From a virus, in the IMG/VR virus record IMGVR_UViG_3300046543_000407, positions 1 through 22,896 of that record: 22,896 bases of DNA; one strand, given 5' to 3'. A model generated the notes under the pieces. That model was not told the origin of the DNA, did not search any database, and was given only the letters and a program-made list of their open reading frames with translations. Numbering within the stretch: position 1 is the first letter of the stretch; each line of letters starts with the position of its first letter. The translations under genes were made by a program, and so were the position numbers. Below, one piece after another: positions 1 through 22,896 of the stretch.

Positions 1-1
1 A

Positions 2-1960: not shown

Positions 1961-1966
1961 CAAGCT

Positions 1967-2617: not shown

Positions 2618-2628
2618 GGAGACCGGCT

Positions 2629-4125: not shown

Positions 4126-4128
4126 GCA

Positions 4129-5652: not shown

Positions 5653-5672
5653 TGTAACCCGAACCGAACTGA

Positions 5673-9469: not shown

Positions 9470-9509
9470 TCCGTTCTCCTCCTTTAGAGTTAGGGTGGTT
9501 ACTCACTAA

Positions 9510-9588: not shown

Positions 9589-9592
9589 TTGG

Positions 9593-10411: not shown

Positions 10412-10416
10412 GGTGT

Positions 10417-10605
10417 TTAGATTAGCTCCTTCTCCATAGCGAGCCATTCGGGCATCGTCATCACCTTAGCCCTGTCGTCCCACTCGCATTGGCTCTTAGG
10501 CAGCCAGACCTCCTTGTTTCCGTCGTAGAAGTGGTATGCTCTATCTGTCTCGTATGGAGCACACAGCTCACCAGAGATGTCTACAAGCTCACGACGATTT
10601 GCCAT
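10417..10605 (-). CDS. Small conserved phage protein between folE and dpdA, unknown function
   Basis: 62 residues, ATG 10605 behind AAGGAGAT, which overlaps the folE stop; it ends 5 bases before the dpdA-like ATG. The sequence is a compact alternating pattern (ELVDISGEL, then YHFYDGNKEVWLPKSQCEWD, then MTMPEWLAMEKELI) that I have seen in small phage proteins, where WLPKSQ..WD and a C-terminal PEWLA.EK.LI are the conserved parts. It looks like a small beta-barrel followed by a helix. No catalytic residues are evident. Its tight placement inside the modification operon suggests co-regulation and perhaps an accessory role (sequence recognition, DNA delivery), but that is a guess. Confidence 0.75.
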   Translation of the reverse strand: MANRRELVDISGELCAPYETDRAYHFYDGNKEVWLPKSQCEWDDRAKVMTMPEWLAMEKELI

Positions 10606-10608
10606 CGG

Positions 10609-11217
10609 TCATCTCCTTGACCGATTGATGATGCTGAAGAACTCCGATCGGGCTGCTGGTACATCTCTGAACACGCCACGGACGCAGGATGTAGTGGAAA
10701 TTATCTCGGGTGTGTTGATACCTCGGCACGCCATGCAGGTGTGCATCGAGTCGATTACGCAGATGACCCCTTTGGCGCGGGTATGCGTGTTGAGTGTATC
10801 CGCTATCGTCTCGCATATACGCTCCTGCATGCTAGGCTTACTGAGACTGATTGCGTCCACTAGGCGAGCTAGTTTGCTGAGCCCTACGACCTTACCATCT
10901 GGGATGTACCCTAGGAAGGCACTACCTGTAGCAGGGAGTAGGTGATGTTCACACATCATCCTAAACGGGATGTTAGATTGGACGACCAAGCCGTGGATGC
11001 CTTCAGCGAGCGGTCCGTCGAATAGATCACCTAAGACTTCGGCAGCATCACATGGCTGGTTGAACTCGTACAGATACCGGAGCAATCTGCTAGGAGTTTT
11101 ACTGTACGCTTCAGCACCGAGGTTAGGACCGAATACGTACTCCAGTAGGTATCTGATGTGTATTTCAGGATCGTAGTATTCGGCTCTTCCGTCATTCGTT
11201 ACTCTGTAGTCGTCCAT
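10609..11217 (-). CDS. folE: GTP cyclohydrolase I
   Basis: 202 residues, the usual length. FolE converts GTP to 7,8-dihydroneopterin triphosphate, the first step toward both folate and 7-deazaguanines. The zinc site is visible: C89 and H92 in CEHHLLP and C161 in MHTCMACRG. The other signatures are complete: PSRLLRYLYEF near the N-terminus, GYIPDGKVVGLSKLARLVD at 103-121, and QERICETIADTL. This corresponds to the type IA enzyme rather than QueF, which shares the tunnel fold but has a different signature. It starts 6 bases after the queE stop and its stop lies in the Shine-Dalgarno of the next gene. Given its neighbours, the job is to feed QueD during infection rather than to make folate. Confidence 0.95.
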   Translation of the reverse strand: MDDYRVTNDGRAEYYDPEIHIRYLLEYVFGPNLGAEAYSKTPSRLLRYLYEFNQPCDAAEVLGDLFDGPLAEGIHGLVVQSNIPFRMMCEHHLLPATGSAFLGYIPDGKVVGLSKLARLVDAISLSKPSMQERICETIADTLNTHTRAKGVICVIDSMHTCMACRGINTPEIISTTSCVRGVFRDVPAARSEFFSIINRSRR

Positions 11218-11223
11218 GATACG

Positions 11224-11952
11224 TTACTTCCCTTTCATGTTACCCCAGAGCATAGCATGCAGCTGCGGAAGAACTGTTACGTCAGTTAGCTCTGACTTTC
11301 CTATAGTTTGTTCTGTGAGCCACCTATAGCGCTCCATGATCTCGGTGGTCATGAGGAAAGGTGATCGGCCTTCTGCATGCACTTCGGTACCGCATGAGAT
11401 ATAGAACGGTACTCCAGGATAACGCATGTGGATGCTCACGGCGAACTCAAGGTCGTCCTCGTCAAACACAACTACCTTGAAGGCTATCTTGCTGTACAGA
11501 TCGGCGAACTGATCGAGGATTGTATAGTCTGTCCTGCTAGACATACCAGACGAAGGGGGCTTAGGAGAACAGGTGACCAGATCACAGTACTTCAGCCAAG
11601 GGTTGAAGTAAGCTCCCTGTGTCTCCACCGCTATCTGAAGTCGAAGATCCATGCCGATCATGAGGGTGAGTCTCTTGAGATCCCAGTGCAGAGGATCGCC
11701 ACCGCTTAAGGTGACCCATTGGGCACTTTGGGAACCTCCAAGTTCGTGGACGCTGCTTATGATCTCGTCTTCGTCCATCCGTTTGGCAGTGTTGTGTATG
11801 AGATCCGGGTCCACAGCGTGCATGCTGTCACACCAGGAGCATCGATAGGAGCATCCTGCGAATCTGATGAAGTGACTGGTTTGCCCGATGAGGGCACCCT
11901 CTCCTTGGATTGTAGGTCCGAATATCTCGGACACGAGGAGTTTATCCGGCAC
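11224..11952 (-). CDS. queE: 7-carboxy-7-deazaguanine synthase (radical SAM)
   Basis: GTG 11952 is preferred because GGAGG lies five bases upstream of it. The longer GTG at 11970 would include that Shine-Dalgarno in the coding region. The result is 242 residues, overlapping the queD end by 11 bases. QueE converts 6-carboxy-tetrahydropterin to 7-carboxy-7-deazaguanine. The N-terminal IFGPTIQGEG is a QueE signature, followed by the cluster-binding C34, C38 and C41 in the shortened CSYRCSWCD motif (CX3CX2C) for the 4Fe-4S cluster and S-adenosylmethionine. LSGGDPLHWDL is the radical-SAM GGE-type loop with Asp in place of the usual Glu. TCSPKPPSSG is also typical. Third gene of the deazaguanine set; all expected core motifs are present. 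Confidence 0.94.
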   Translation of the reverse strand: MPDKLLVSEIFGPTIQGEGALIGQTSHFIRFAGCSYRCSWCDSMHAVDPDLIHNTAKRMDEDEIISSVHELGGSQSAQWVTLSGGDPLHWDLKRLTLMIGMDLRLQIAVETQGAYFNPWLKYCDLVTCSPKPPSSGMSSRTDYTILDQFADLYSKIAFKVVVFDEDDLEFAVSIHMRYPGVPFYISCGTEVHAEGRSPFLMTTEIMERYRWLTEQTIGKSELTDVTVLPQLHAMLWGNMKGK

Positions 11953-12502
11953 TTGCTCCTCCTGCACCACCAGTCGGCACCGAGACGTACGAGTGAGAAG
12001 GGAAGATGGCTACGCTGTTAGGCGTCTCCCATACATACAGTCGGGTGAGTTTGAGATTAGGGTCGTGCTGTTCGATGGGAATCCTTAGCCGTGAGAACCA
12101 GAACTCCGCTAAGTGCTCAGCAGTTGGAACGAATGGAACCACTAGCAGCTTGAACTGACCACGCTGTTTGTCCTCGGGAATGAAGCACCACCCTTCATTC
12201 TCGCAGACCTTTGTGACCTTTTCTATCTCGAACTTGTCAAGAAAGCTGGTCAGCAAGTCGTCCTTGACCCACAGGCATAGACCGTGATCACCGAAGTCAT
12301 GGATCTGTGACATCATGAACTGCTTCAGGAAGCCGAAGTCTACCACCATCCCAGTCTCGACGCCTTTAGTCTGTAGCTTGAGAGACCTGACTTCTGCTTC
12401 AATCACGTATCGATGGCCGTGAAGGTTCCAGCACTTTGAGCCATGTGTTGGCACACGATGCCCCATGTCGATCTCAATAGTACGCCTGATGCTAAACGAC
12501 AT
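11942..12502 (-). CDS. queD: 6-carboxy-5,6,7,8-tetrahydropterin synthase
   Basis: 186 residues, longer than the usual 120-140. QueD turns dihydroneopterin triphosphate into 6-carboxy-tetrahydropterin, the substrate of QueE. Zinc ligands H15, H28 and H30 and the catalytic C24 are seen in MGHRV and CWNLHGHRY. MVVDFGFLK carries the conserved Asp-Phe, DHG (72-74) supplies the catalytic Asp/His, and PTAEHLAEFWFSRL the conserved Glu. The extra length comes from an internal insertion between the DHG region and PTAEH (about residues 75-130) and a short C-terminal tail rich in Gly and Ser. The tail end overlaps the queE start. The insertion is seen in some phage and bacterial QueD homologues; I regard the enzyme as probably active. 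Confidence 0.94.
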   Translation of the reverse strand: MSFSIRRTIEIDMGHRVPTHGSKCWNLHGHRYVIEAEVRSLKLQTKGVETGMVVDFGFLKQFMMSQIHDFGDHGLCLWVKDDLLTSFLDKFEIEKVTKVCENEGWCFIPEDKQRGQFKLLVVPFVPTAEHLAEFWFSRLRIPIEQHDPNLKLTRLYVWETPNSVAIFPSHSYVSVPTGGAGGASAG

Positions 12503-12522
12503 TGCGCTTCCTCCCCTTGCTG

Positions 12523-12723
12523 CTACTGGTAGAGTCTTGCCCTCACTGCACAGTCTTTCGCCTCTAGCAGCTTGCGTAGTGCTACTGTTCGCTCTGGGTT
12601 CCTGGGTAGGATGTTCACAAGATCGTGTGCCAGATCGTGGAACCGTTGAGAGACGGTTTGAAGATTATCGGGCAGATGTTCGTAGCCGAAGAACTGCAGT
12701 AGTGGTTCTTGTTCTGGTGTCAT
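12523..12723 (-). CDS. Acb2/Tad1 hairpin-like small protein, candidate cyclic-nucleotide sponge
   Basis: 66 residues from ATG 12723, which has AGGAGCAAGAG just upstream; the open frame continues farther upstream over queC, but that part is low-complexity and overlaps queC. The protein reads as two helices: a front with FFGYEHLPDNLQTVSQRF, a middle LAHDLVNILP and a C-terminal helix ERTVALRKLLEAKDCAVRA. This pattern (HLP..LQ.VS..F..LA......LP...ERT.ALRKLLEAKDAAVRA) is widespread in small phage proteins and, as I recall, belongs to the group named after the Acb2/Tad1 hairpin. Acb2 binds cyclic di- and trinucleotides and blocks CBASS; Tad1 binds cADPR-type signals of Thoeris. The family membership is from memory and function in this member is inferred. 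It lies 32 bases after queC and 20 before queD, in the modification operon. Confidence 0.72.
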   Translation of the reverse strand: MTPEQEPLLQFFGYEHLPDNLQTVSQRFHDLAHDLVNILPRNPERTVALRKLLEAKDCAVRARLYQ

Positions 12724-12755
12724 CTCTTGCTCCTGCTCCTGTACCTGTGAAGGGC

Positions 12756-13478
12756 TCACGCTGCATACCTTGTGGGATCGTAGACGCCTGAGTTGACGAA
12801 GGCTTCCTTGCGAGCAATGCATGTAGGACATTTGCCGCAATGCAGCTCTTCTCCTTTGTAACACGACCACGTCATCTCGTACGGCACAGCTAGACCGAAG
12901 CCCTCCTTAACAATCTGGGCTTTACTGTAGTGCATGAATGGAGCTACCAGCCGTACTTTGAAGTACGTGCCAATGTAGATGGCGTTAGCCATCGCGCCAA
13001 TGAATTCCGGCGTACAATCTGGATATGCCCAGTTATGTGCATCTTCAGCGTGGGCTCCAAACCAGATCGTAGCTTCTCGTGGTCCACTATCTGAATCTGT
13101 ATTGCCTCTCAGGATCCACCCTTGAGCAATACCGGCGACCCTTGAGAGTAGCTGTCCATTCCTGAAAGGGACGTAAGTGGGAGACATCCCCTCGATCTTG
13201 TCGTATGAGGTCTCGGGGATAGGTGCGTGAGAGTCCGTGAGCATGCTTTTTGGAGGTCTAGACATATCAACGATAAGACGCTCTATGCCTAGATGCTCAG
13301 CCAGCTGATTGGCATAGTCAATCTCCTTCAGGTGTCTCTGACCATAGTTAATTGAGACGGAGATGACCTCATCAAACGCGTCCGTATCACGGATCGCCTT
13401 AGCAAGTGCTGTGGAGCTATCAACACCCCCACTATGAAGAACATACGTACGACGCGCTACGTGTGCTGTTGTCATCAT
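12756..13478 (-). CDS. queC: 7-cyano-7-deazaguanine (preQ0) synthase
   Basis: 240 residues, close to the usual 220-235. QueC uses ATP and ammonia to turn 7-carboxy-7-deazaguanine into preQ0. The PP-loop SGGVDS is at 16-21, INYGQRHLKE at 43-52 and the zinc site is C206, C214, C217, C220 (CX7CX2CX2C in SCYKGEELHCGKCPTC). GAHAEDAHNWAYPDC is the family's conserved middle segment. An insertion rich in Asp/Ser (about 124-136) is unusual. No glutamine amidotransferase domain is fused to it, unlike the Gat-QueC that leads to archaeosine in phage 9g. ATG 13478 is followed by a second ATG; only a weak AGGTGA is upstream. It is the first gene after the terminator at 13496-13534 and opens the deazaguanine operon. 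Confidence 0.95.
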   Translation of the reverse strand: MMTTAHVARRTYVLHSGGVDSSTALAKAIRDTDAFDEVISVSINYGQRHLKEIDYANQLAEHLGIERLIVDMSRPPKSMLTDSHAPIPETSYDKIEGMSPTYVPFRNGQLLSRVAGIAQGWILRGNTDSDSGPREATIWFGAHAEDAHNWAYPDCTPEFIGAMANAIYIGTYFKVRLVAPFMHYSKAQIVKEGFGLAVPYEMTWSCYKGEELHCGKCPTCIARKEAFVNSGVYDPTRYAA

Positions 13479-13484
13479 TTTGTC

Positions 13485-13496
13485 ACCTGATCAGGT
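13485..13496. promoter_or_regulatory. 12-base palindrome at the queC start
   Basis: ACCTGATCAGGT is a perfect palindrome 6 bases upstream of the queC ATG; its right half supplies the weak AGGTGA ribosome site. It abuts the T-tract of the terminator for the upstream gene. It could be an operator or an RNA hairpin hiding the ribosome site; only the palindrome is directly seen. Confidence 0.4.
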
Positions 13497-13534
13497 AAAA
13501 AGAAGGAGCAGCCGAGGTATCTTTCGACTGCTCC
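13496..13534 (-). terminator. Intrinsic terminator after the ssDNA-binding gene
   Basis: On the minus strand GGAGCAG...CTGCTCC (13534-13528 with 13511-13505) forms a 7-pair stem extended by TCG/CGA after one mismatch. It is followed by TTCTTTTTA (13504-13496). It closes the recombination set and separates it from queC. No sigma-70 promoter is seen between it and queC, so read-through or antitermination may feed the modification operon. Confidence 0.75.
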
Positions 13535-13548
13535 AGTTGCGTGGTTGT

Positions 13549-14049
13549 CTAGACGCCGGCGAAGCCGCCCGACTCAGAGCCTGTGGCCTGTGGAGGGAGG
13601 ACATCCCTCACGTTGTTGCGGTTCTGACCCTCGTACTTACGAATGTCAATCCGCAGACGAGCACGTGCCCCTAGCAGACGTCCTTCGTTAGCCACGTTCT
13701 CAGGAGAGAAACGTGGAGCAGCAAGGAGCTCTGCCTCGTAGCCATCGTCAGTCTTGATCCGAGCAAGAGTCCGCTTGACTCTTGGCATCCCCTGCTCATT
13801 GAAGACCGTGTGATAGAAGAACTTGCGACCTGCATGCTCTCCCTCTTCCACCTCCCACACCCACGTCCACATTGGGTTGTTGGAGCGCTGACTGAAGCCG
13901 AAGTCCAGCTGAGCCAGAGCCACGTCGTAGAGGCCTCGAGCTACCGGCTTAAAGCCGGAATCGTCGACTTCTCCCATGGACACGTATAGGGTGTCGCCGG
14001 AATCCTCCGTCTCCATCCCAAACCGGTCCTCTTCAAACGTACCACTCAT
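13549..14049 (-). CDS. DUF669-like phage single-stranded DNA-binding protein
   Basis: 166 residues, ATG 14049 behind AGAGGAGAA. The sequence fits DUF669 proteins, which in many phages sit beside Sak4-type ATPases and act as ssDNA-binding proteins. It has an acidic N-terminus (DSGDTLYVSMGEVDDSG), then GLYDVALAQLDFGFSQRSNNPMW, WVWEVEEGEHAGRKFFYHTVF, and the basic C-terminal RARLRIDIRKYEGQNRNNVRDVLPP. The strand pattern suggests an OB-like beta barrel that coats ssDNA for replication or annealing. It is immediately downstream (62 bases) of the ATPase and ends at an intrinsic terminator. Family assignment is from the G.Y-S..GNP-W..EV-G...GR pattern; ssDNA binding is known for some relatives and inferred here. 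Confidence 0.78.
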   Translation of the reverse strand: MSGTFEEDRFGMETEDSGDTLYVSMGEVDDSGFKPVARGLYDVALAQLDFGFSQRSNNPMWTWVWEVEEGEHAGRKFFYHTVFNEQGMPRVKRTLARIKTDDGYEAELLAAPRFSPENVANEGRLLGARARLRIDIRKYEGQNRNNVRDVLPPQATGSESGGFAGV

Positions 14050-14110
14050 GTTATTCTCCTCTTTCTAGCGCCGTTAAGGCCTAGCTTTAGGTGTTGATGA
14101 AGTTAGCCAG

Positions 14111-15262
14111 TTACTCTGCAGCTACTCTTGTTGTTGTAGTTGTTGTTGTAGTTGCAGCCGTCGTCTTCTTCAACAGGCCCGTCCTCAGGAGAATGTCCCC
14201 CATAGTTGGGTTGTCGAAGTAGTTGCCGCGGAAGGGTGTTAACCGACACTTCGCTGCGTAGCGAGTGTTGGGACGGACGTATAACCTCCGCGGCGCAGGC
14301 GTGTCGTCCGTTTCTGCTTGCCCGAGAACAAGATAGCCAACCACATCCATAAAGCCTTGGATTAGGCTTGACAACTTCCCTGTCATCATTGGGCTGAATA
14401 GCTGACGCTTCTGTTCGTCCTGGATGTATCCTCTCGCTGCTGTGAACATGACATGCATAGGAAGGTTTCGGAAGTTGCGGATCAGACGTTGGATCATCGT
14501 ATGCTGTTGGCGATACTGTGCCCACTCAGCAGGTGTCACCTCTTCGTCCATCCTAGTATCGTTTGTGACTCCCGTCAACTGGTTCATGCAGTACACTTCA
14601 GTCTCAGTCAGTGAGTCCAGGATGACAGTTCGATATCGTCTGATGCGTTCGTCTTCTTCCATATCGGGCATGACGATCTTCTGAAGCCTCTTGAGGCGTT
14701 GGGTGCTCTCGAGGTCGATGTTGTCGCGCAGACTGCAATGAGCCTTCAGAAAGTCGTAGATGCGGGCAACGGTCTTATAGTCGAAGGCCTTAACAACGTC
14801 GATCTTCTCAAAGTCATGCACACCTTCTGGATCGTGCAGTGTGAGATCACCTCCTTCAGCGCTGATCATCAATACATCGTTCATCTCTGGAACGCTTACG
14901 CTTGTACCACAGAGGTAAGTCTTCCCTGCACCGTACTCCCCGTAGAACAGACTTTTGATGTATGGCAGAGGAGCTTTCTTGGTAGGAATGATAAATGCAG
15001 GTGCTGCAGGTGTTCCTCCAGGTTGAGTGATTGCTGCTGTAGCTAGGTTAGCAGTCTGGTTAGCTGGTGCACCTTGTTTGGTACTAGGTGGAGCTGTTGT
15101 TGATACCTGAGTACCGCCCGCTGCTCGTACGTTAGCTCCTTCTCTTAGGGCGGATTGACTAGTGCTAGTCGCCGTCGTGGTGGAGGACGTCGTAGGATTC
15201 GCCTCTGTCGTTGTTGTGGAAGATATAGCTCGGTCTCCGGATACTTCACTCTCTGACGCCAT
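14111..15262 (-). CDS. Sak4-like RecA-fold ATPase (recombinase / annealing mediator)
   Basis: 383 residues. ATG 15262 has AGAGGAAA upstream. Residues 1-95 are a disordered Thr/Ser/Ala/Gln-rich tail. The core follows: Walker A GEYGAGKT at 108-115, MISAEGGDLTL at about 132-142, and Walker B VILDSLTE with D216. A typical Sak4/AAA_24 core continues through QRLIRNFRNLPMHVMFTAARG and the MTGKLSSLIQGFMDVVGYLV segment. The C-terminus is a Thr run coded by repeated GTTGTTGTA-type triplets at about 14130-14155, prone to slippage. These single-domain RecA-like ATPases help load or anneal ssDNA in phage recombination. The first 118 bases overlap the 3' end of the upstream nuclease gene in another frame. 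The partner ssDNA-binding protein follows. Confidence 0.85.
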   Translation of the reverse strand: MASESEVSGDRAISSTTTTEANPTTSSTTTATSTSQSALREGANVRAAGGTQVSTTAPPSTKQGAPANQTANLATAAITQPGGTPAAPAFIIPTKKAPLPYIKSLFYGEYGAGKTYLCGTSVSVPEMNDVLMISAEGGDLTLHDPEGVHDFEKIDVVKAFDYKTVARIYDFLKAHCSLRDNIDLESTQRLKRLQKIVMPDMEEDERIRRYRTVILDSLTETEVYCMNQLTGVTNDTRMDEEVTPAEWAQYRQQHTMIQRLIRNFRNLPMHVMFTAARGYIQDEQKRQLFSPMMTGKLSSLIQGFMDVVGYLVLGQAETDDTPAPRRLYVRPNTRYAAKCRLTPFRGNYFDNPTMGDILLRTGLLKKTTAATTTTTTTTRVAAE

Positions 15263-16380
15263 GCTGTGTTTTCCTCTTCACGGTCTTGAGCGCTCATCTC
15301 GAGCTCATGTTGCCAATCAAGGCCGCTGTCTAGGTGCAGACAAGCTGTCCGAAATCCACAGTCCCATGAACAATCTCGAGTGGGATTGGGATACAGCGGC
15401 AGGTCCGGATTTAACATTTCGGTCGTCTCGGCTAGTATCTTCAACCCCTCAGCCTCGATCTGATTCTGGTTACGTTCGGTAGTTGCGAACCCGATGAAGC
15501 TATCAGCCCTCTCGTTCTCCTGACCTTGCAGATAGTCAAGAAACTGCCGATTAGGTAATGGAGCCCTATCAGTGGACTCGTACATATTCATGAGGGCCTT
15601 CTTGTACAAGGCGTAAGTGGTGATCTGGTTCTTTGCCACTGAGAATGTGCCGGTAGATTTCAAGAATGCCGGCTCGTGAGGAATGACTTTCTTGAACTGC
15701 ATATAGAAGAAGCCAGCTACAGGCATGTTGTAGATGTGCTGTGCTGCCCAACAATAGGATGAGATCTGGGGGTCTGTATCAAGATGTGCTGTGCTGATCT
15801 GCTTGGCAGTCTTGTAATCTCCGGGCCATATACGACCAAGCTCATCAACCACCACGCGATCAATAGTGCCACAATATACAGCACGATCAAAGCCATATTG
15901 ATTGAGAAGCTCAGTAGGCAGCGGGATAGGAATCTGGAAATTGACTTCGACCTGAGGTACGCCATCGATGTACAACGTCTCTAGGCTGCCGCGAAAGTCA
16001 AGCCATTCCTCGTAGTAACCGAGCATTGATTGCCCTAGCTCAACGAGCTCGTTCACGTCTGAAGGAGGAGGATAGCTAGGTGTACGCTTAGTCGCATCAA
16101 CGTATGCCATGAAGGCGTCGGCTGGGCTAGCAAACCTTCTGTAGCCGTGATAGTCCTCAAGTGCGAAGTGAAAGCCCGTCCCAAACCAGAAGTAACCTGG
16201 AGGCTCTTTCATAGTCAGGTTGTTACGATGTATGTACCACCAATTGAACTTGCGCCTACAACGTCTGAATGAGCTCCGATCAGACTGACGTATAATCGCC
16301 ACTCTATCCGGAGTTGTGAGGCTAGGCAAGTAATCAGGAACAAGATCTTCCGGCTCATAGAAATGAAAGTCATCGTCCAT
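15145..16380 (-). CDS. Cas4/RecB-like PD-(D/E)XK exonuclease with 4Fe-4S cluster
   Basis: 411 residues. The nuclease motifs are readable: SSFRRCRRKFNWWYI with C41, FGTGFHFALEDYHG (H71), GTIDRVV (D174), PGDYKTAK (D188, K190) and QISSY (Q205). Three cysteines near the C-terminus (C337, C341, C347 in CSWDCGFRTAC), together with C41, make the iron-sulfur staple of Cas4/AddB-type nucleases. Such phage enzymes resect dsDNA ends to feed recombination; here it precedes a Sak4-like ATPase and ssDNA-binding protein. The last 40 residues are Arg/Pro/Gln-rich and are encoded across the overlap with the next gene's start. Promoter A lies 37-66 bases upstream of the ATG, making this the first gene of its transcription unit. 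Confidence 0.85.
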   Translation of the reverse strand: MDDDFHFYEPEDLVPDYLPSLTTPDRVAIIRQSDRSSFRRCRRKFNWWYIHRNNLTMKEPPGYFWFGTGFHFALEDYHGYRRFASPADAFMAYVDATKRTPSYPPPSDVNELVELGQSMLGYYEEWLDFRGSLETLYIDGVPQVEVNFQIPIPLPTELLNQYGFDRAVYCGTIDRVVVDELGRIWPGDYKTAKQISTAHLDTDPQISSYCWAAQHIYNMPVAGFFYMQFKKVIPHEPAFLKSTGTFSVAKNQITTYALYKKALMNMYESTDRAPLPNRQFLDYLQGQENERADSFIGFATTERNQNQIEAEGLKILAETTEMLNPDLPLYPNPTRDCSWDCGFRTACLHLDSGLDWQHELEMSAQDREEENTAWRQRVKYPETELYLPQQRQRRILRRPPPRRRLALVNPP

Positions 16381-16416
16381 GACCTATAGAGCCCCTGGCT
16401 GCCTTTCTATGACAAC

Positions 16417-16460
16417 ATTATATCATAAAGCACTAGGGGGAATCAAGTGTCCAAATGATA
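16417..16460 (-). promoter_or_regulatory. Promoter A with flanking inverted repeat
   Basis: On the minus strand -35 TTGATT (16446-16441), an 18-base spacer and -10 TATAAT (16422-16417) face the nuclease gene at 16380. TATCAT (16460-16455) and ATGATA (16426-16421) form an inverted repeat over 40 bases that brackets the promoter and overlaps the -10. The same arrangement recurs at 21279-21322 (promoter B). Sigma-70 type; the repeat may be a repressor site. Confidence 0.8.
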
Positions 16461-16496
16461 GTCGACCACAAAATAATTTGCAATGGTAGTAACATA

Positions 16497-16568
16497 TGGG
16501 GGCGTGTGTCGGAATTGAACCGACAGACCATTTGGCTGTAAGACCCAGGCCCGCAAACCTGCCACGCC
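16497..16568 (-). tRNA. tRNA-like gene, isotype uncertain (possible Val-UAC)
   Basis: 72 bases with CCA encoded. The acceptor stem is GGCGTG with CACGCC (the seventh pair is G-A). The D-arm is CAGG/CCTG with a GGG-containing loop. The T-arm is perfect: GTCGG, loop TTCAATT, CCGAC (16524-16508). The predicted anticodon loop CTTACAG (16542-16536) gives U33 and anticodon UAC, but the flanking five-base arms pair at only two positions. Length is 4 short of usual. It is either a divergent or decaying tRNA, or a tRNA-like RNA with another role. It begins 1 base after a small ORF and precedes promoter A. Confidence 0.6.
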
Positions 16569-16569
16569 A

Positions 16570-16668
16570 TCATAGTTCGTCCTCGTCACTTATGTCGCTT
16601 TGGTTTTGTCTGGGAGACACAAAGCCAATGAGGACAAGTACTGCCCATACAATGAGCAGACTAAACAC
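16570..16668 (-). CDS. Tiny single-pass membrane protein (possible)
   Basis: 32 residues from GTG 16668. The first half is a clear transmembrane helix (FSLLIVWAVLVLIGFV) and the second half a polar acidic tail (QNQSDISDEDEL). The hydrophobic-then-acidic design looks selected rather than random. The preceding base context has only GAGAA as a weak ribosome site, and the start overlaps the end of the 31-residue ORF upstream by 8 bases, suggesting coupling. It ends 1 base before the tRNA-like gene. Function is unknown; small phage membrane peptides of this kind include holin-like, superinfection-exclusion and anti-defence proteins, but nothing here picks among them. Confidence 0.45.
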   Translation of the reverse strand: MFSLLIVWAVLVLIGFVSPRQNQSDISDEDEL

Positions 16669-16756
16669 CGCATATCGTTCTCAACCACCAGTCGAAAGCT
16701 GTGAACGAGATCTTACCTTCAAGCCACAGTTTCTCGATACGTTGGTTAGCCTCCAC
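16661..16756 (-). CDS. Tiny ORF after the helicase gene (possible)
   Basis: 31 residues from GTG 16756, which begins 4 bases after the helicase stop. It starts MEANQRIEKLWLEGKISF and ends FDWWLRTICGV, an amphipathic helix followed by an aromatic segment, like small phage helical proteins with a DWWL ending. No good Shine-Dalgarno; translation would need coupling to the helicase. A competing ATG overlaps the helicase stop (ATGA) in another frame and yields only 27 residues of less protein-like sequence. I do not recognise a family. Confidence 0.4.
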   Translation of the reverse strand: MEANQRIEKLWLEGKISFTAFDWWLRTICGV

Positions 16757-16760
16757 TGCT

Positions 16761-18140
16761 TCATTTGACTGCTGTGAGGGCTCTTCTGACGGCGTCGATG
16801 TTGGTGAGGAAGCTGAGGGCATTGTTCACCTTCGTGTCTAGAGCAGGAAGCATCAGTTCCGAGTCCACTCCATACTCATGCCGTATGTAGTATAGACTAA
16901 TCGGGTCTGTGATTTCCCCCCGGTGAAGTCTATCTTCAGCCTGCAGATTGTCCCAGGCATCCCATTCGTATCCAACGAACACACCCCAAGTGGCCGGTGT
17001 GAGGTCAAATGATTCAGCATATCGTATGCTGCATAGAGCAATGCCACGTACTTCCCTGAAGTGAGCAACTCGTTGCATGAGTTCCGTAAAGGACAATCCG
17101 CCGGAGAGCTGAATGATAGATCGATCGGCGAATCCAGCCTCAATGAGGCGGCGACGTATAAAAGGCAAGGCCGATGTAAACGGACTGAAGACGACCATAT
17201 GTTGATCTGTCGCTTCATCGAGAAGCTCAACGAGCCTTTCGATACTCGCCCCATACTCGAACTCCGGATCAAGGATCTTAGGGCAGAGGAGCACTTGGCG
17301 CAGTCTGATGATCTGTGTAAGCACATTTTGCGCTACTAGCACTCCGTTAGAGGGAAGTTCTGCCATCATGTCACGAGCCAGCTTTGAGTACAGCCTACGC
17401 TGTGGGAGGCTCATCTGTAGGACGTTGCTATCCAGATCGCGAACCTTCGGAGGCATATTAGGACGTACCTCCTTTTTAGTCCGAGCAATCATGATCCTCG
17501 CCATGTCTGCTTTGAACTTGGCTTCGTCCTTAGTGCCTATGATCTCCCAGCCATAATCTCCTTCTCTGTCTACGATGCAGTACTGATCTACGAACTTCCA
17601 GTAGCTGGGATATCTTGATCGGCTTAGTATGTTCAGAAGACCCCAAATGCCTGGAGGTCCCTTACGCATAGCGCTACCTGATGTCAGAAAGACGTAAGTG
17701 GCACCAAAGGCTAGGCTTTTCAGCTGTTTGAAGTTCTTGGTCTTGCGGTTCGAATCCTTATGAGCCTCGTCACTGATCACGCACCTGAAGATATGCGGGT
17801 CTACTAGACCTGTGAATATGTCGTTCCTGAGTGACTCTCGCGTGACGATGACAAAGCTAGAGCTATTTTGCTTGCTCCACAGTGCATTACGTTGTGCAGC
17901 GCTACCGTAGATGCGCATCGGAGGTCTGCATCCCCAGTCTTTAGCTTGATTGATCCAAGCCATCTGAGCATTGACGCCTGCCAGAATGATACATGGAGTT
18001 GGGAAGCCGAGTTGTTTCCACGCAAGGTATACTGATCCAGTTTTGCCGAGCCCCATGTCATCTGCGCATAATAGTCGTCCTCGAGCTACCTTAGTAGCCC
18101 AATCGACAAACTCCAGTTGGTGTGGCCAAGGTTCTCTCAT
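16761..18140 (-). CDS. SNF2-like DEAH-box helicase
   Basis: 459 residues, a short superfamily 2 SNF2-type helicase or translocase as in many phage replication modules. Helicase N-lobe: HQLEFVDWA (Q-like motif), Walker A DMGLGKT at 28-34, motif Ia IILAGVNAQMAWI, DEAH at 124-127, motif III LTSGSAM. C-lobe: MVVFSPFTSALPFIRRRL, IQLSGGLSFTELMQRVAHF, and motif VI ...NLQAEDRLHRGEITDPISLYYI, the degenerate SNF2 form of Q..GR.HR.GQ. It would unwind or translocate on DNA during replication, repair or recombination. It follows the small hypothetical gene with a 12-base gap; the Shine-Dalgarno is weak (AGG 12 bases upstream). Some relatives act in fork remodelling; the exact role is unknown. Confidence 0.9.
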   Translation of the reverse strand: MREPWPHQLEFVDWATKVARGRLLCADDMGLGKTGSVYLAWKQLGFPTPCIILAGVNAQMAWINQAKDWGCRPPMRIYGSAAQRNALWSKQNSSSFVIVTRESLRNDIFTGLVDPHIFRCVISDEAHKDSNRKTKNFKQLKSLAFGATYVFLTSGSAMRKGPPGIWGLLNILSRSRYPSYWKFVDQYCIVDREGDYGWEIIGTKDEAKFKADMARIMIARTKKEVRPNMPPKVRDLDSNVLQMSLPQRRLYSKLARDMMAELPSNGVLVAQNVLTQIIRLRQVLLCPKILDPEFEYGASIERLVELLDEATDQHMVVFSPFTSALPFIRRRLIEAGFADRSIIQLSGGLSFTELMQRVAHFREVRGIALCSIRYAESFDLTPATWGVFVGYEWDAWDNLQAEDRLHRGEITDPISLYYIRHEYGVDSELMLPALDTKVNNALSFLTNIDAVRRALTAVK

Positions 18141-18152
18141 ATCGTCGGCCTA

Positions 18153-18479
18153 TTAGTCCATCCTTGAGACTTCGAAACTTCCATCCGTCTGTAGGATCAA
18201 TACCCAGTCGCCTGGATACACCAGTATCATCTCGCCCCTCAGAGCAGCTTGAGCCCACGGCCTCAAGGGAGGATCTCCTGGATAGAGGAGATGGTAGTCA
18301 GGAGCAGGAGACAGGCCGAATCCTTTCATCGATCTCCAGCCTCCTTGCTGTCTGTAACCTGAATTGAGCTGCTCCTTAACAGGTTTGGGACTGAGCTCTG
18401 ACAAGAAGCCTGGAAGGTAGCCCAGATCGGCTACTGACATCCTGCTGTCTAGTATGATGAAGGGGTAGGGTGTCATCAT
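18153..18479 (-). CDS. Conserved phage protein of unknown function
   Basis: 108 residues, overlapping the ligase stop by ATGA. The text MSVADLGYLPGFLSE, then YRQQGGWRSMKGFGL, YPGDPPLRPWAQAALRGEMILVYPGDWVLIL and FEVSRMD matches a family I have seen beside replication genes of phages (SM.DLG.IP.FL with a GGGW..F.GF and YPGDPP element). It is rich in Pro, Trp and Tyr with no nucleic-acid enzyme motif. The conserved position between ligase and helicase suggests an accessory role in DNA metabolism, which is only an inference from context. Confidence 0.75.
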   Translation of the reverse strand: MMTPYPFIILDSRMSVADLGYLPGFLSELSPKPVKEQLNSGYRQQGGWRSMKGFGLSPAPDYHLLYPGDPPLRPWAQAALRGEMILVYPGDWVLILQTDGSFEVSRMD

Positions 18480-19411
18480 GTGATGTCCTCCGGATGTCTG
18501 AACCCCATGAAGATCGGATGCCTTGGAGCATCTAACGTCCCAACTGGGAGATAACGATACCGAATGATTTTCCCGGAATAAGCTTGATGGTTATCCCATA
18601 TCTCTTTCCTGAGGGCATGGTCGAATCCACTCCCAACTCCAAAAACCCAGGAGGCGTTTTTAAGGTCTCGTACTCGCAGAGTTCCAAGCATTCCCGAAGG
18701 ACGTTGACCAGCTTTGTGTGAACTTCTGGTGGTAAACCCTCTCGCGTCAGTAGTGGCAGGATTGTCATTGTGCATGAGCTCCTCGAACCCTTCGATGATG
18801 GCTTCGGAGTCTTTGAAGCGTTTGAGCTTCCCCATGTAGCCTTCTTTGGGAGTCGACCTCCCCTGTTTGTAAGGTGCGTGAGGATCTCGGATGATCACGC
18901 CTTCATATCCCCAGCTGACGTACGCATCTTCAGCTCTTGTCAGCTCGTCTGGGTCGACAACTATCGCCTGCTGTAGTAGCTCAACTCGGTGGTTGACTCC
19001 TGTATCTGTTAGGTTTCTTTGTCTGGTTGCGAGGTTCTTATGCCTTTCGACGAATCGTCCTTGAATCGTGATGTCATCGAATACGTAGTACCTAACATCA
19101 GGCTCTCCGTCTGCTGACATCACGCCGCTGCTAGTCCTTGCAAAGACGCCTTCGCCATACGGCTCCCCTACGACTAGCTCGCCATCCAGACCTTCGAGCT
19201 GGTACAGACCAAATATCTCTTGTGTGTACTGGTTGCGGATTGGCTTCATCGTTCGAGAGTACAGCTTGCCGTCCCTGACGATAGCTCTGATGCCATCCAG
19301 CTTGGGAGATACCCAGTAGGCAACGCCTACTCTCTCGAGGTTGGCATTGTAGTAGTTAATGTCCGCATCGAATGCCAGCATCGGCCGAAACGGTTTGACA
19401 GTAGTACTCAT
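18476..19411 (-). CDS. ATP-dependent DNA ligase
   Basis: 311 residues, typical of minimal phage ligases. Motif I SPKLDGIR gives the adenylated K37; motif III LDGELV at 75-80; motif IV YEGVIIRD with E170; motif V MGKLKRFKD with K195 and K197. After the nucleotidyltransferase core the region GTLRVRD...FGVGSGFDHALRKEI...GKIIRYRY is a small OB-fold that includes motif VI-like basic residues. It joins nicks using ATP, sealing Okazaki fragments or repaired DNA. The start is ATG 19411 with AAGGA upstream, and it overlaps the upstream HNH gene by 4 bases (ATGA) and the downstream gene by 4. The family call is firm; T7-like rather than NAD-dependent. Confidence 0.95.
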   Translation of the reverse strand: MSTTVKPFRPMLAFDADINYYNANLERVGVAYWVSPKLDGIRAIVRDGKLYSRTMKPIRNQYTQEIFGLYQLEGLDGELVVGEPYGEGVFARTSSGVMSADGEPDVRYYVFDDITIQGRFVERHKNLATRQRNLTDTGVNHRVELLQQAIVVDPDELTRAEDAYVSWGYEGVIIRDPHAPYKQGRSTPKEGYMGKLKRFKDSEAIIEGFEELMHNDNPATTDARGFTTRSSHKAGQRPSGMLGTLRVRDLKNASWVFGVGSGFDHALRKEIWDNHQAYSGKIIRYRYLPVGTLDAPRHPIFMGFRHPEDIT

Positions 19412-19908
19412 GTGCTTGTTTCCTTGACAAGGAGGGATTCAAAACGAAGCTGCTCCCAGGAGCCCTCCTTCATCATCCTGAGCCGCAAGGTTGAGAAGCT
19501 GACGCCCAGCTCCCTAGCTAGATCTGACGCTACTATAGGCACCCCCGTCTTAGGGTGTCTAACCCAACGATTGTTACGTCTATTGACTCCTTGTACAGCC
19601 GGAGTAGCCCACCGAACGTTTCCCGGAACGTAATGCTCTTCAACTTTTATCCGGTCAAGTGTATGCCTCCACGTAGGTTTAATTCCTGCGTGACTGATAA
19701 ATGCTCTGTAGGCAGCTTGCAGCCTCTCTTCGGGTTTCAATGCCTCGTAGAATTCAGACCTCCAAAGTGCATGCACCTTAATCCCACGCCCGCCATACTG
19801 TTTGTAGCTGACATGATCAGGATTGTAGCACCGCTGGAGCATCATGTACCAGCTACGATACGTCCGCTGGTTCAGGTCAGCTCGGGAGTTCTTACGAGGC
19901 TTCTTCAT
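19408..19908 (-). CDS. HNH/AP2-type DNA-binding endonuclease-like protein
   Basis: 166 residues. The N-terminal half matches free-standing phage HNH-type proteins: TYRSWYMMLQRCYNPDH, YKQYGGRGIKVHALW, then HTLDRIKVEEHYVPGNVRWATPAVQGVNRRNN. These are the short-loop 'YGGRGI ... DRI ... Y.PGN.RWAT...Q..N.R.N' pattern. The C-terminal part (SDLARELGVSFSTLRLRMMKEGSWEQL) is a helix-turn-helix or NUMOD-like DNA-binding region. A homing endonuclease or DNA-binding regulator is likely; whether it cuts DNA is not shown. It is joined by 4-base ATGA overlaps to both neighbours, so it is a resident operon member rather than a recent loose insertion. Ribosome site: AAGAAGGAAG. Confidence 0.75.
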   Translation of the reverse strand: MKKPRKNSRADLNQRTYRSWYMMLQRCYNPDHVSYKQYGGRGIKVHALWRSEFYEALKPEERLQAAYRAFISHAGIKPTWRHTLDRIKVEEHYVPGNVRWATPAVQGVNRRNNRWVRHPKTGVPIVASDLARELGVSFSTLRLRMMKEGSWEQLRFESLLVKETST

Positions 19909-20159
19909 GCTTCCTTCTTCGCCGGTACGCTCTCGAAAGGCTCGCGCAGTGCTCCAGGAGCGAGTACGGTTACACTAGCAGGCTCATTGCAATGCGAGCA
20001 TATGATGTCTAATGACGGATTGTGTCGAAGCGCTGCCTGACCTGATGGATAAATGCCTACCCTCTCACCACATTTGAGACACACTCGGGAGTTGTCCTGC
20101 TGAGGATGAACTCGATGCATGTCGGCTAGACGCATCACTATTAAGGCAGCAAATTTCAT
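19905..20159 (-). CDS. Zinc-ribbon small protein, unknown function
   Basis: 84 residues. Two Cys pairs, CLKCGERV (residues 27-30) and CSHC about 25 residues later, make a zinc ribbon with a short basic helix before it. The hydrophobic start (FAALIVMRLADMHRVH) is not long enough for a membrane segment. The C-terminus is Pro/Ala-rich. ATG 20159 has GGAGAACATGAC upstream. Sits between the tiny membrane gene and the HNH gene, overlapping the latter by ATGA. No family recognised; probably nucleic-acid or protein binding. Confidence 0.7.
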   Translation of the reverse strand: MKFAALIVMRLADMHRVHPQQDNSRVCLKCGERVGIYPSGQAALRHNPSLDIICSHCNEPASVTVLAPGALREPFESVPAKKEA

Positions 20160-20160
20160 G

Positions 20161-20241
20161 TCATGTTCTCCATATCAGGAAGATCATGATGACGCCGAGT
20201 ATCAGGATGCTTACGATGTTCATGTTCATGTTCATGTTCAT
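20161..20241 (-). CDS. Tiny hydrophobic membrane peptide with repeated Met-Asn start
   Basis: 26 residues, too short for usual annotation. ATG 20241 overlaps the HAD gene's TGA as ATGA, and the stop at 20161 lies just before the next gene's ATG, so it fits the operon's coupled pattern. The start is four tandem Met-Asn pairs, then a strongly hydrophobic helix (IVSILILGVIMIFLIW) and a short basic tail. This looks like a single-pass inner-membrane peptide. Each of the four ATGs could serve as a start. Function is unknown; holin-like or membrane-targeting roles are only possibilities. Confidence 0.55.
   Translation of the reverse strand: MNMNMNMNIVSILILGVIMIFLIWRT
20218..20241. repeat. Hexanucleotide tandem repeat (GTTCAT)4
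   Basis: Four perfect copies of GTTCAT on the + strand, equal to ATGAAC on the minus strand, form the first codons of the tiny membrane gene. Copy-number change keeps the frame but alters the number of Met-Asn pairs and start codons. Confidence 0.9.
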
Positions 20242-20678
20242 CGACGGGTATCGTTCCACGGTCTGAAGTACATCAATCGCTCTGGTTTCAGATCTCTATC
20301 ACCCCACCTGCCTTGAAACTGAATAGCTCGATCATCAATGGTAAGGAAGGCTGCAGGCTTCTCTGCCGACATAGTAAACTCGACAGGTTGGCGCGTTCCT
20401 CCCTTATCCAGGAGCCATTCATGCATCTTGATGGCTAGCCACTTACCCATCGCTAGGCGACCAGCATCTGTTGAGGATCGAGAGCTGTAGATCACCAGCT
20501 TGAAGTACTTCTGAGCCTCTGCTGCCCACTCAAGAAAGCCAGGCACCATTCCGTCGTATATCGTTCCATCTTGCCAGCCCTTGGAGTAGAGATGGATGAC
20601 ACCATCAAAGTCTAGGCAGAGATTAGGCTTCTGCACTTCAGACTCAGCTGAGGTCTCTAGGGGTTTGGACTCCGACAT
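20238..20678 (-). CDS. HAD-superfamily phosphatase-like protein
   Basis: 146 residues. Motif I CLDFDGVIHLY with D23 (nucleophile) and D25, motif II at about residue 64 (VIYSSRSS), and motif III FLTIDDRAIQF with D115/D116. These are complete, so a phosphatase or phosphotransferase activity is likely. A conserved Lys between motif II and III is less obvious (K-rich region EK near 106). The C-terminus (DLKPERLMYFRPW) matches a phage HAD group also found in NIF- and PNK-like phosphatases. Substrates in relatives include 3'/5' nucleic-acid phosphates and nucleotides; the adjacent kinase, ligase and resolvase suggest a DNA-end or nucleotide processing role, inferred only. Start ATG 20678 has AAGGAG upstream and overlaps the preceding gene by 35 bases. 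Confidence 0.8.
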   Translation of the reverse strand: MSESKPLETSAESEVQKPNLCLDFDGVIHLYSKGWQDGTIYDGMVPGFLEWAAEAQKYFKLVIYSSRSSTDAGRLAMGKWLAIKMHEWLLDKGGTRQPVEFTMSAEKPAAFLTIDDRAIQFQGRWGDRDLKPERLMYFRPWNDTRR

Positions 20679-20871
20679 ACTTCGCTTGCTCCTTGCTGGT
20701 GATTAGGACCGCGTTACTTTTGTGCATCTGGATGCTCGGGTAGTAGTTCTTACCGTCTGCGCAGTTCCTGCACCAATGAAGCCCAAGAGCCCACCGCCTT
20801 GGGTTCACTATCTGCTCGCAGTTGAGTTCCCTCTGTCTCAGGCATGTCGGCCACTCTTCCTCCATCAACAT
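20644..20871 (-). CDS. Small cysteine-rich protein, unknown function
   Basis: 75 residues from ATG 20871 (a second ATG lies 6 bases on), with GAGGGAG about 11 bases upstream. Four cysteines (CLRQRELNC and WCRNC) suggest a zinc knuckle, followed by GKNYYPSIQMHKSNAVLI, a pattern I associate with small phage proteins of the type 'W.C..C..GK..YP...MH..N'. It overlaps the upstream gene by 122 bases and the downstream HAD gene by 35. The reading frame looks more protein-like in its downstream half than in the overlapped part, so the true start could be later, but no good start is seen there. Confidence 0.6.
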   Translation of the reverse strand: MLMEEEWPTCLRQRELNCEQIVNPRRWALGLHWCRNCADGKNYYPSIQMHKSNAVLITSKEQAKYVGVQTPRDLS

Positions 20872-21010
20872 GACTTTGTTGCTCCCTCACCTTCTTTTGA
20901 CGTGCTGCGTGACAGATTAGGCACCTCTTCCATGTTCTGCCGCTTGTACTGTGAGTGACTAACACAGTGTTGTTCGCATGTAGAAGATGCCCATTTCGGC
21001 ACCGCTTCAT
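20750..21010 (-). CDS. Zinc-finger (HNH-like) small protein
   Basis: 86 residues from ATG 21010, which follows the upstream stop by 2 bases; a TTG at 21025 would only add 5. The N-terminus (CRNGHLLHANNTVLV, then RTWKRCLICHAARQKKVR) is the C..GH...N......R.C..C...R pattern of small phage zinc-finger/HNH-like proteins that are common in actinobacteriophage genomes. The C-terminal half is unlike those and is overlapped by the next gene in another frame. Likely nucleic-acid binding; cleavage residues beyond the zinc ligands are not evident. Confidence 0.7.
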   Translation of the reverse strand: MKRCRNGHLLHANNTVLVTHSTSGRTWKRCLICHAARQKKVREQQSHVDGGRVADMPETEGTQLRADSEPKAVGSWASLVQELRRR

Positions 21011-21012
21011 TG

Positions 21013-21243
21013 TTATGTTCCCCAAGGGTTCAGTAGTTTCCTGATCTCTACGTGGGTGTGACTCTCACAAACGTAAGGTATCTGTTGTCCACCTCTAACA
21101 ACCCAAGTAATCGGTCTGAAGTTTGGACCTGCTGTCTCTGAGAGGTAAGCACCCCTGAATCTGGCCTTCTTCTTCTGGATCAGAAACCCAAGATCCTCAT
21201 TGGTAATGGTGAACCTCTTATTCTTAGTCTTGGTCTTTATCAT
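21013..21243 (-). CDS. Small basic protein, first gene after promoter B
   Basis: 76 residues from ATG 21243, chosen because AGAGG lies 8 bases upstream; GTG 21252 is the alternative. The N-terminus is very basic (KTKTKNKRFTITNEDL), followed by IQKKKARFRGAYL and a Trp/Gly-rich middle and a CESHTHVEIRKLL helix. It is the first gene after the second promoter and ends 2 bases before the next start. No family recognised. A nucleic-acid-binding or early regulatory role is plausible from charge and position, nothing more. Confidence 0.65.
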   Translation of the reverse strand: MIKTKTKNKRFTITNEDLGFLIQKKKARFRGAYLSETAGPNFRPITWVVRGGQQIPYVCESHTHVEIRKLLNPWGT

Positions 21244-21278
21244 GTGGGTCACCTCTGGTTGTTCTTCAATTATACCAT

Positions 21279-21322
21279 ATTATATCATAAGGTCATAGGG
21301 AACATCAAGTGTCAAAATGATA
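21279..21322 (-). promoter_or_regulatory. Promoter B with flanking inverted repeat
   Basis: On the minus strand -35 TTGATG (21308-21303), an 18-base spacer and -10 TATAAT (21284-21279). TATCAT (21322-21317) and ATGATA (21288-21283) bracket it over 40 bases, exactly as at promoter A. About 38 of 46 positions match between the two copies. An A/T-rich stretch (21331-21339) upstream could be an UP element. Drives the run from 21243 leftward. The rest of the 166-base gap to 21418 shows no gene. Confidence 0.8.
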
Positions 21323-21418
21323 GTCCGTCCAAAAATTTTGAGGCACACCTGGTCGCCTTACGAGAGTGGGAATCAAGTAGAGGCGGAGCCTTCTGACCGG
21401 AGAGGGAGATCGCATCTT

Positions 21419-22012
21419 TTACGTCTCTCTTCGTATGTTCGTTAGACAGGCCATGATAAATTCAACACGTTCCTCCGGGGTTAGTACCGGAACAACCGTG
21501 ACCGGTACGTTGAATATGCTGATCAGCCCATACAGGATACAGTCAAAGGCTAACCGCTCGCCCTCTCTTAAGGTGCGCATTGAGTCGTCATTAGTGGGGA
21601 ATGTCGTCAGAGGGAAGTAGAAGATCATCCGGTAGAACTGTAGAGCCCTCTCTACGAGGTCACGCAACCACAGAAGGTCGGCTGCTGATAAGGTGGCACT
21701 GCAGTACTGGAGAGCGTACGCGTGCTGGTCTAATTGCGTACGATCTGTGATCATACGTTGACCGAAGAAGTCCGACATCGAAGTCATATGAGCGACTTGG
21801 ATGTTACGCTGTAAGAGCCAGCGCTCGTAAGGTTCTAGCTTGTCCTGATCGGTTTCTCGTTGGTAGCCCATGCGCTTAAATACGTCTCGACTAGCACTCG
21901 GTAGGTAACTCCAACAGAGAGATGTGGATAGGAGCTTAGCGGTCGTTGTCTTTCCAGTCCCGCCTGCTCCGCAGAAACCTATGAACGTCCCGTTGAGCTT
22001 CCTGAGTGCCAT
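21419..22012 (-). CDS. P-loop nucleotide/nucleoside kinase-like protein
   Basis: 197 residues, ATG 22012 with AAAGGA upstream. Walker A GAGGTGKTT at 15-23, then a segment ITDRTQLDQHAYAL which is the 'DRS..D..AY' element of the AAA_28/NadR-like kinase group, and a lid-like acidic/basic region. The family phosphorylates nucleotides or nicotinamide riboside, or acts as a general phage NTPase; I cannot pick the substrate. A dNMP kinase serving modified or unmodified precursor supply is a possible role but unproven. It follows the resolvase by 16 bases and ends the transcription unit upstream of promoter B. Confidence 0.75.
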   Translation of the reverse strand: MALRKLNGTFIGFCGAGGTGKTTTAKLLSTSLCWSYLPSASRDVFKRMGYQRETDQDKLEPYERWLLQRNIQVAHMTSMSDFFGQRMITDRTQLDQHAYALQYCSATLSAADLLWLRDLVERALQFYRMIFYFPLTTFPTNDDSMRTLREGERLAFDCILYGLISIFNVPVTVVPVLTPEERVEFIMACLTNIRRET

Positions 22013-22028
22013 TATGTGTGGTTGTCCT

Positions 22029-22574
22029 TTATCCTACATGGTGTGAGCCTGAACTTGCTGGTACTCGCTGGATGACTTCGCTAGTACGAGTCTTGGGAGG
22101 GAAGAGCAGGTAGAAACAACCATGTCTGATAGCATCACGAGCGTGCTTCAGACCCGTGTAATAGAAGCCCCACTCTTTCAGTTTTGTATCGGTCACAAAC
22201 CGCTTAGGGTCTCCCGCCATCTGCTTGTGATATGGGATGCCGCGCTGATCGCAGAGGACCTCAATTGCCCCTATGAGGCGCGGGGTAAGAAGATTTGACC
22301 CGACGTGTTGTTTGGCATAGTGTGGATAGACTTTGTAGTCCTCCATCACTACCTCGATGCCGTTAGTGGAGTACCTTTCAATGAACCTGGTGTATGCAGT
22401 CACTGCCAGACTTAGATCGGCTGATGGAAGGTGTACAGCATACGTCAGCTTAGTACCTTCGAACACACAGGCACCTGTAGTAGCTCCTGGATCGAAGCCG
22501 AGTAAGGTCGGAGGAGCGCCCCTAATCTTGAGGCGCTCCGTCCTTACCCAGTGAAGTTCTTCGAACGAGATCAC
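22029..22574 (-). CDS. RuvC-like Holliday junction resolvase
   Basis: 181 residues. RNase H fold motif 1 GFDPGATTGACVFEG with D28, then motif 2 VVMEDYKVY with E78, and the C-terminal GLKHARDAIRHGCFYLLF with H144 and D147. These are spaced as in phage RuvC-type resolvases, though a fourth acidic residue is not obvious. It would cut Holliday junctions or branched DNA before packaging. It overlaps the upstream gene by 4 bases (ATGA). Within the C-terminal half, QRGIPYHKQMAGDPKRFVTD is the usual loop between motifs 2 and 4 (VxxQ-PSxVK in relatives). Family call is good; the exact substrate is inferred. Confidence 0.82.
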   Translation of the reverse strand: MISFEELHWVRTERLKIRGAPPTLLGFDPGATTGACVFEGTKLTYAVHLPSADLSLAVTAYTRFIERYSTNGIEVVMEDYKVYPHYAKQHVGSNLLTPRLIGAIEVLCDQRGIPYHKQMAGDPKRFVTDTKLKEWGFYYTGLKHARDAIRHGCFYLLFPPKTRTSEVIQRVPASSGSHHVG

Positions 22575-22894
22575 TCAGCTGCAGTCGGCTGCTCAGCGGT
22601 GACTGCCTGAGTCTCAGTCGCCACCTTCGGAGGGCCACCAGGGATGTCCTTCGTGGCGCTGAAGATGATCTGGTACTGCACGTCCTTCGAGCCCGGGGTC
22701 TTCATGGCATTCACCTCCTTGGTGATCTGCCCACGGCTGACGCCTTCCTTCCACCGCTTCCGGATGTAATCAATCCGTGCCTCTCCATTGGTCAGAAGGA
22801 TCTTCGCTCCGTCCTTCCCCGACTCCGCAGCCATCTGAGCAGCAGCAGTAGCCTGAGCTCGCGCCTCGACCTCGTTCACGACGTTCGCGTTCTG
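22571..22894 (-). CDS. Small conserved phage protein, HTH-like, 5' end outside window
   Basis: At least 107 residues; the frame is open to the window edge, so GTG 22879 may be internal. The N-terminus is an Ala/Gln-rich helix (EARAQATAAAQMAAE). The centre reads ARIDYIRKRWKEGVSRGQITKEVNAM, a helix-turn-helix-like pair, then KDVQYQIIFSATKDI. I have seen similar 'R.EYIR.....G.SR..I...L......V.YQ.V..ATK' proteins in actinobacteriophage genomes. The tail is a Thr/Pro/Glu-rich flexible end. Overlaps the resolvase by ATGA. Likely DNA-binding; role unknown. Its codons look more G/C-ending than its neighbours'. Confidence 0.65.
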   Translation of the reverse strand, partial: QNANVVNEVEARAQATAAAQMAAESGKDGAKILLTNGEARIDYIRKRWKEGVSRGQITKEVNAMKTPGSKDVQYQIIFSATKDIPGGPPKVATETQAVTAEQPTAAE

Positions 22895-22896
22895 TG

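Follow-up and report, generated by a model that had tools for sequence, protein, structure and literature searches.

The window analysed here (the whole stretch of DNA, a linear virus record of 22,896 bases) is organised as two convergent gene arms: a plus-strand end (positions 1-6644), and an extended series of minus-strand genes (6806-22896) comprising replication, queuosine-type and small genes. Between the arms, at 6743-6773, lies a hairpin of 14 pairs with a T-run, which is likely a terminator. Within the minus-strand series, a set of QueC-, QueD-, QueE- and GTP cyclohydrolase-like genes (9593-13478) is located beside an unassigned gene for a 284-residue protein that is conserved in related phages and in phages of Brevundimonas, and together these genes form a probable 7-deazaguanine DNA-modification cluster.

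Two similar promoter-like elements, both on the minus strand, precede separate groups of genes within this arm. The first (copy A) lies upstream of a PD-(D/E)XK exonuclease gene (15145..16380, minus strand), the ATG of which is found 37 nucleotides past the end of the -10 hexamer, and which is followed by genes for Sak4-like, SSB-like, QueC, QueD, QueE, FolE and DNA polymerase proteins. Just upstream of copy A, a minus-strand segment at 16500-16573 displays a perfect tRNA-like T-arm (TGTCGGTTCAATTCCGACA) and tRNA-like acceptor ends; ARAGORN reported no tRNA there, the top Rfam match was weak (tRNA-Sec, E 0.82), and a similar T-arm end occurs in the matching place in the related contig G003. 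The second element (copy B) is separated by 27 nucleotides from a small reading frame of 79 codons (21013..21252, minus strand) that heads a group of HNH, ligase and helicase genes. That frame opens with a GTG at 21252, but translation more likely begins from an ATG at 21243, which AGAGGTG closely precedes; its product displayed no match to a known protein family, and recovered zero relatives when used as search bait. Elsewhere in the window, at 20216-20240, a GTTCAT hexamer is repeated four times in tandem.

Copy A (16410..16478, positions -68 to +1 of a predicted extended early promoter) consists of an A/T tract, a GGTCGACT box, ATTTGGACAC, TTGATT, an 18-nucleotide spacer and TATAAT. Its -10 hexamer TATAAT occupies 16417..16422, with a putative start site near 16410, and its -35 hexamer TTGATT (preceded by a C, to form CTTGATT) occupies 16441..16446. 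Further upstream are found the box GGTCGACTATCATTTGG (-57..-41; 16451..16467), in which GAC occurs at -53 and again from -41, and a tract (-68..-58; 16468..16478) that is A/T-rich and resembles an UP element. Copy B (21272..21340, -68 to +1) similarly comprises an A/T tract, GACGGACTATCATTTTGACAC, a -35 TTGATG (21303..21308), an 18-nucleotide spacer and a -10 TATAAT (21279..21284), with a putative start site near 21272. The hexamers and the spacer agree with a preliminary description of this DNA, and in both elements the -35 and -10 (TTGATT or TTGATG, 18 nucleotides, TATAAT) match the sigma70-type consensus at 10 of 12 positions.

The two copies share the string GACTATCATTTkGACACTTGATk...CCCTA...TTATGATATAAT. 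The similarity noted in that description was borne out, at a slightly lower figure than the 38 of 46 bases quoted: identity is 36/44 between 16417-16460 and 21279-21322, and 42/54 and 48/63 over longer spans. A search of the record with copy A retrieved copy B at E 1.3e-9, and both copies scored 39 against a matrix of the wider family described below, for which the maximum in 50 shuffles was 17.5. Further copies, which had been suggested as an object of search, were absent from the window, where a scan with the same matrix returned no independent site above 9 (versus 39 for the two copies) and thus no third member. The number of bare sigma70 matches in the window is unremarkable (14 found versus 13.6 expected), and the evidence for copies A and B is therefore the long sequence that they share.

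That shared sequence was found to extend well beyond this record. Related contigs, mostly metagenomic fragments, were identified via the helicase gene that lies between the two copies (eight contigs) and by subsequent pattern scans, and were searched with a matrix of the element trained on the relatives, which gave 0 matches at a score of at least 18 in 1.3 Mb of shuffled sequence. In place of the two early units originally envisaged, each large related contig carries 4-11 copies, and 71 were collected from 12 contigs (duplicates dropped and the window's two included). Their consensus corresponds to A/T-tract(-68..-58)-GGTCGACCATCATTTTGACwCTTGATT-N18(17)-TATAATA, or in a longer form AAAAAWWTT-nn-GGTCGACCATCATTTTGACwCTTGATTnCCC-n-TATAATA. 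The spacer measures 18 nucleotides in most copies (56), 17 in 14 others and 16 in a single copy. In the aligned set, conservation begins abruptly near -70 and is lost past -6, and the sequence outside those limits is random save for a weak purine bias downstream; the claim that conservation continues upstream of -35 is thereby upheld. Paralogous copies within single genomes display 0.7-1.2 bits per position across the box at -57..-37, against about 0 for an upstream control, and the similarity is consequently not just the shared ancestry of one locus. While some of the matrix comparisons include training copies, box scores remained high in most genomes when one genome at a time was left out.

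The placement of these copies is similarly consistent. Orthologues of copy A precede the exonuclease gene in G002, G003, G007, G008/G009 and G011 (and, in diverged form, in the Brevundimonas phages MaInes and StAshley), and keep that position where the sequence further upstream differs; the operon corresponding to that of copy B is preceded by copies in G002 (at 38756) and G003 (at 17017). In the scan set, the median distance from the end of the -10 to the next reading frame is 47 nucleotides, and 40 of 81 sites (duplicate contigs included) are intergenic, a lower bound, because the relatives' genes were called by a simple longest-ORF rule. In G001-G006, every one of the 47 copies is oriented toward the early or replication arm. 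The several copies per genome, the orientation matched to genes, and the conservation past the -35 and -10 hexamers are those of a phage-wide promoter family, and support the initial view of a promoter-type element that faces early and replication genes. On these comparative grounds we regard the window's copies as real members of a predicted family of extended promoters, located before early genes in largely uncultivated phages. A megablast of the whole window against a phage collection yielded no match to a close isolate, blastn with the consensus returned weak, unrelated matches only, and literature searches turned up no description of such an early promoter element. A single pattern match in bacterial genomes (Papillibacter, score 20), which harbors no GGTCGACC-type box upstream, is probably due to chance.

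Within the 71 copies, the -10 (TATAAT at -12..-7) is nearly invariant, and the -35 (TTGATT at -36..-31) is preceded by a C. Upstream of that core, an A-tract (four A/T bases without TpA) is present at -47..-41 in 66/71 copies, versus a background of 2.8%, most often as TTTT or ATTT and sometimes as AAAA, and a second A/T tract is present at -70..-58, again in 66/71 (background 5.7%). Between the two is found a specific box, GGTCGACC, at -57..-50, which is matched at six or more of its eight positions in 38/71 copies (background 0.5%). The motif GACC, with up to one mismatch, recurs at -53 (70% of copies), -41 (76%) and -31 (31%), at spacings of 12 and then 10; in 75 further copies from other contigs, which were found with a matrix limited to -47..-31 and the -10 and so without reference to -53, GACC is present at -53 in 43%. 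The best supported structure is one of GACC repeats at -53, -41 and partly -31, arranged between A-tracts near -64 and -44. Two alternative symmetries were discarded. The box GGTCGACC does not behave as a strict palindrome, as its half-sites lack covariation and copy B matches it poorly. The 40-nucleotide TATCAT/ATGATA inverted repeat, which had been put forward as an operator, is present letter for letter in both window copies, but both arms are found in only those two of the 71 copies, and the repeat is for that reason taken as coincidental.

The separability of the upstream box from the core is most evident at the junction between the gene arms. There, G002-G005 each harbor a single promoter that faces the opposite way, toward terminase and structural genes, and that possesses the same core (CTTGATT-18-TATAAT). 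The -57..-47 scores of these late promoters run from -6.6 to -12.4, whereas the early copies have a median of 8.1 and the background averages -7.7. Since the late promoter displays the core without the box, the box would constitute a separate early-gene module that is dispensable for the polymerase, and no other observation argues as strongly for an independent role of the box as this contrast between early and late promoters. It follows that a shared regulator, as first proposed, is the simplest reading, and the box probably binds such a phage protein.

The best candidate for that regulator, on correlational grounds, is a family of small helix-turn-helix (HTH) proteins with the core KSAKIRxLxxxGYxxxQIxKxLGIxYQHVRNVL, which is encoded, usually as several paralogs, in all of the larger motif-bearing contigs except G011. 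In MaInes, StAshley and G001-G005 the longer paralog is headed, at the 5' side, by the element; most of the short paralogs near the late junction are without it. An AlphaFold2 model of the HTH core is a confident three-helix fold (pLDDT 93-97). Searches of Pfam, NCBIfam, PHROG and PDB sequences gave no confident match, Foldseek returned generic HTH similarity with nothing at E<0.001, and members bear a weak resemblance to PHROG families annotated as transcriptional repressor or D5-like regulator. The core element, at a score of at least 18, accompanies 42/67 other viral loci that encode this family, versus 5/80 thymidylate-synthase loci (a control that replaced loci picked by motif pattern); common descent explains this co-occurrence equally well, because further proteins, too, are common to the training phages and all 67 of those HTH loci. 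The protein suggested at the outset, the HTH-like one at 22571, belongs to another family with marginal similarity to the small HTH proteins, and is a weak candidate by comparison.

We favor, with moderate confidence, a model in which each copy is a sigma70-type early promoter joined to an early-specific upstream module that is bound by a phage protein, likely an activator. Host RNA polymerase (sigma70-type) would use the core CTTGATT-N18-TATAAT at each early unit, and the upstream module would consist of the A-tracts near -64 and -44 and, flanked by them, the GACC-type repeats (at -53, at -41 and, weakly, at -31). Those A-tracts, about one helical turn to either side of the GGTCGACC centre, might serve as sites for the alpha-CTD, so that a phage DNA-binding protein on the -57..-37 box would occupy the same DNA face as sigma region 4 and the alpha C-terminal domains. 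The bound protein would raise, or time, transcription of all early units in concert; it would most likely act as a class-II-type activator, and could be a member of the small HTH family that also controls its own gene. Activation is favored over repression because the box is placed upstream of the -35, although the sequence alone is not decisive. Nor would activation be absolute, because the earliest genes, including the regulator gene downstream of some copies, precede any phage protein; the first genes would need some basal or separate expression, and absolute activation would be conceivable if the short HTH paralogs that lack the element were expressed first. The sequences themselves show the family, its anatomy, its orientation and a late promoter devoid of the box; that the copies act as promoters, that a protein binds them, which protein this is, and that it activates instead of repressing, we infer. 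A more specific version, in which a YQHVRNVL-type protein, from a new family of small homeodomain-like HTH proteins with several paralogs per genome, sits on tandem GACC sites between alpha-CTD A-tracts and makes a shared core early-specific across a widespread set of mostly uncultivated phages, would represent a switch not previously described, and is offered tentatively.

Three other explanations can be weighed against this model. It is possible, though doubtful, that the copies are strong, factor-independent early promoters, in which an optimised host sigma70 core and UP-element A-tracts are repeated in order to outcompete host promoters, as is described for the early promoters of phage T4. 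The perfect TATAAT, the TTTT/AAAA tracts at -46..-42, the A/T tract upstream and the need for immediate action after injection would all fit, as would the resemblance of CTTGA to the alphaproteobacterial sigma70 consensus (PMC2873474); however, the tracts enclose a specific, G/C-containing GGTCGACC/GACC box unlike an UP element, and these phages have a late promoter with the same core and no such box. An operator for repression or feedback, through which a phage HTH repressor bound at the box, which overlaps the upstream side of the -35, would shut off the early units (its own gene included) or hold them off during latency, seems unlikely: HTH genes often follow directly behind a copy, and the weak PHROG similarities noted above point in that direction, but a box upstream of the -35 and flanked by A-tracts occupies the usual place of an activator, and the region from -10 to +20 is devoid of conservation save for the weak purine bias. 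Finally, chance, or a recent local duplication of an intergenic stretch without regulatory meaning, might account for a fragment that holds only two copies, but is highly implausible and is refuted by the family copies in relatives, by the shuffle control, and by orthologous placement at matching positions in phages with 57-94% helicase identity, where the conserved stretch has abrupt limits near -70 and -6 and the flanks differ.

The family provides a genome-wide map of predicted early units for a group of phages that are mostly uncultivated and whose genes include some of queuosine/7-deazaguanine type, together with a named candidate regulator. The early promoters of phage T4 are likewise present in many copies per genome, of sigma70 type, conserved upstream of the -35, and located on early genes. 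The present element shares with them this multi-copy, early-gene arrangement and the upstream conservation, and differs in its GACC box with G/C and A-tracts and in a core that is common to a late promoter. In the middle promoters of T4, a MotA box at about -30 replaces the -35 beside a TATAAT; here too a phage-specific box accompanies TATAAT and would allow one protein to control many units together, but the TTGATT -35 is retained, with the box placed on its upstream side. Promoters of the PhoB/OmpR type contain 11-bp direct repeats beside the -10, and the phage element may be comparable, with putative half-sites in direct repeat, separated by A/T tracts and aligned along a single DNA face, upstream of a sigma70 -10. 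The repeat spacing in the phage element, at 12 and then about 10, is different, and its candidate regulator is a small homeodomain-like HTH protein, unlike a winged-helix response regulator.

The nearest isolates, as judged by DNA polymerase (38% identity), are the Brevundimonas phages StAshley and MaInes, in which the gene order of the replication arm is similar to that of the window. Both contain diverged copies of the element, several per genome scoring above 15 (versus 0-0.4 expected), most of which are followed within 20-40 nucleotides by a co-directional annotated gene, one such gene being the exonuclease gene that is the counterpart of that behind copy A; the paper on MaInes and StAshley makes no mention of promoters. 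The rhizobial, or alphaproteobacterial, sigma70 consensus is CTTGAC-N17-CTATAT (PMC2873474). The phage element resembles it in the CTTGA at the -35, and differs from it (PMC2873474) in an 18-nucleotide spacer, TATAAT and the upstream module; from that likeness, the window plausibly derives from a phage of an alphaproteobacterial host. With a late promoter of the same core and no box as an internal contrast, the function of the box is directly testable in MaInes and StAshley. MaInes (L046) also harbors, at about 21990-22043, a late-facing variant that comprises GGTCGACCATC, GGACTC and CTTGACA-18-TATAAT, in which the box is retained and its spacing to the -35 (TTGACA) is altered.

Two additional sequence features accompany subsets of the copies. 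An extra leader, TATAATAGAAAGAAAATACC, follows directly after the -10 in G002 (24618, 26145 and 27973), G003 (3531 and 5901), G004 (14220) and G005 (42708). A separate sequence, ATCTCAAAAAAGAGA, is located upstream of the box (beyond -60) in G001 (3090), G002 (37028), G005 (54404) and G006 (19574), and the copies in G002, G005 and G006 lie at the 5' end of genes for homologues of the 22571 protein.
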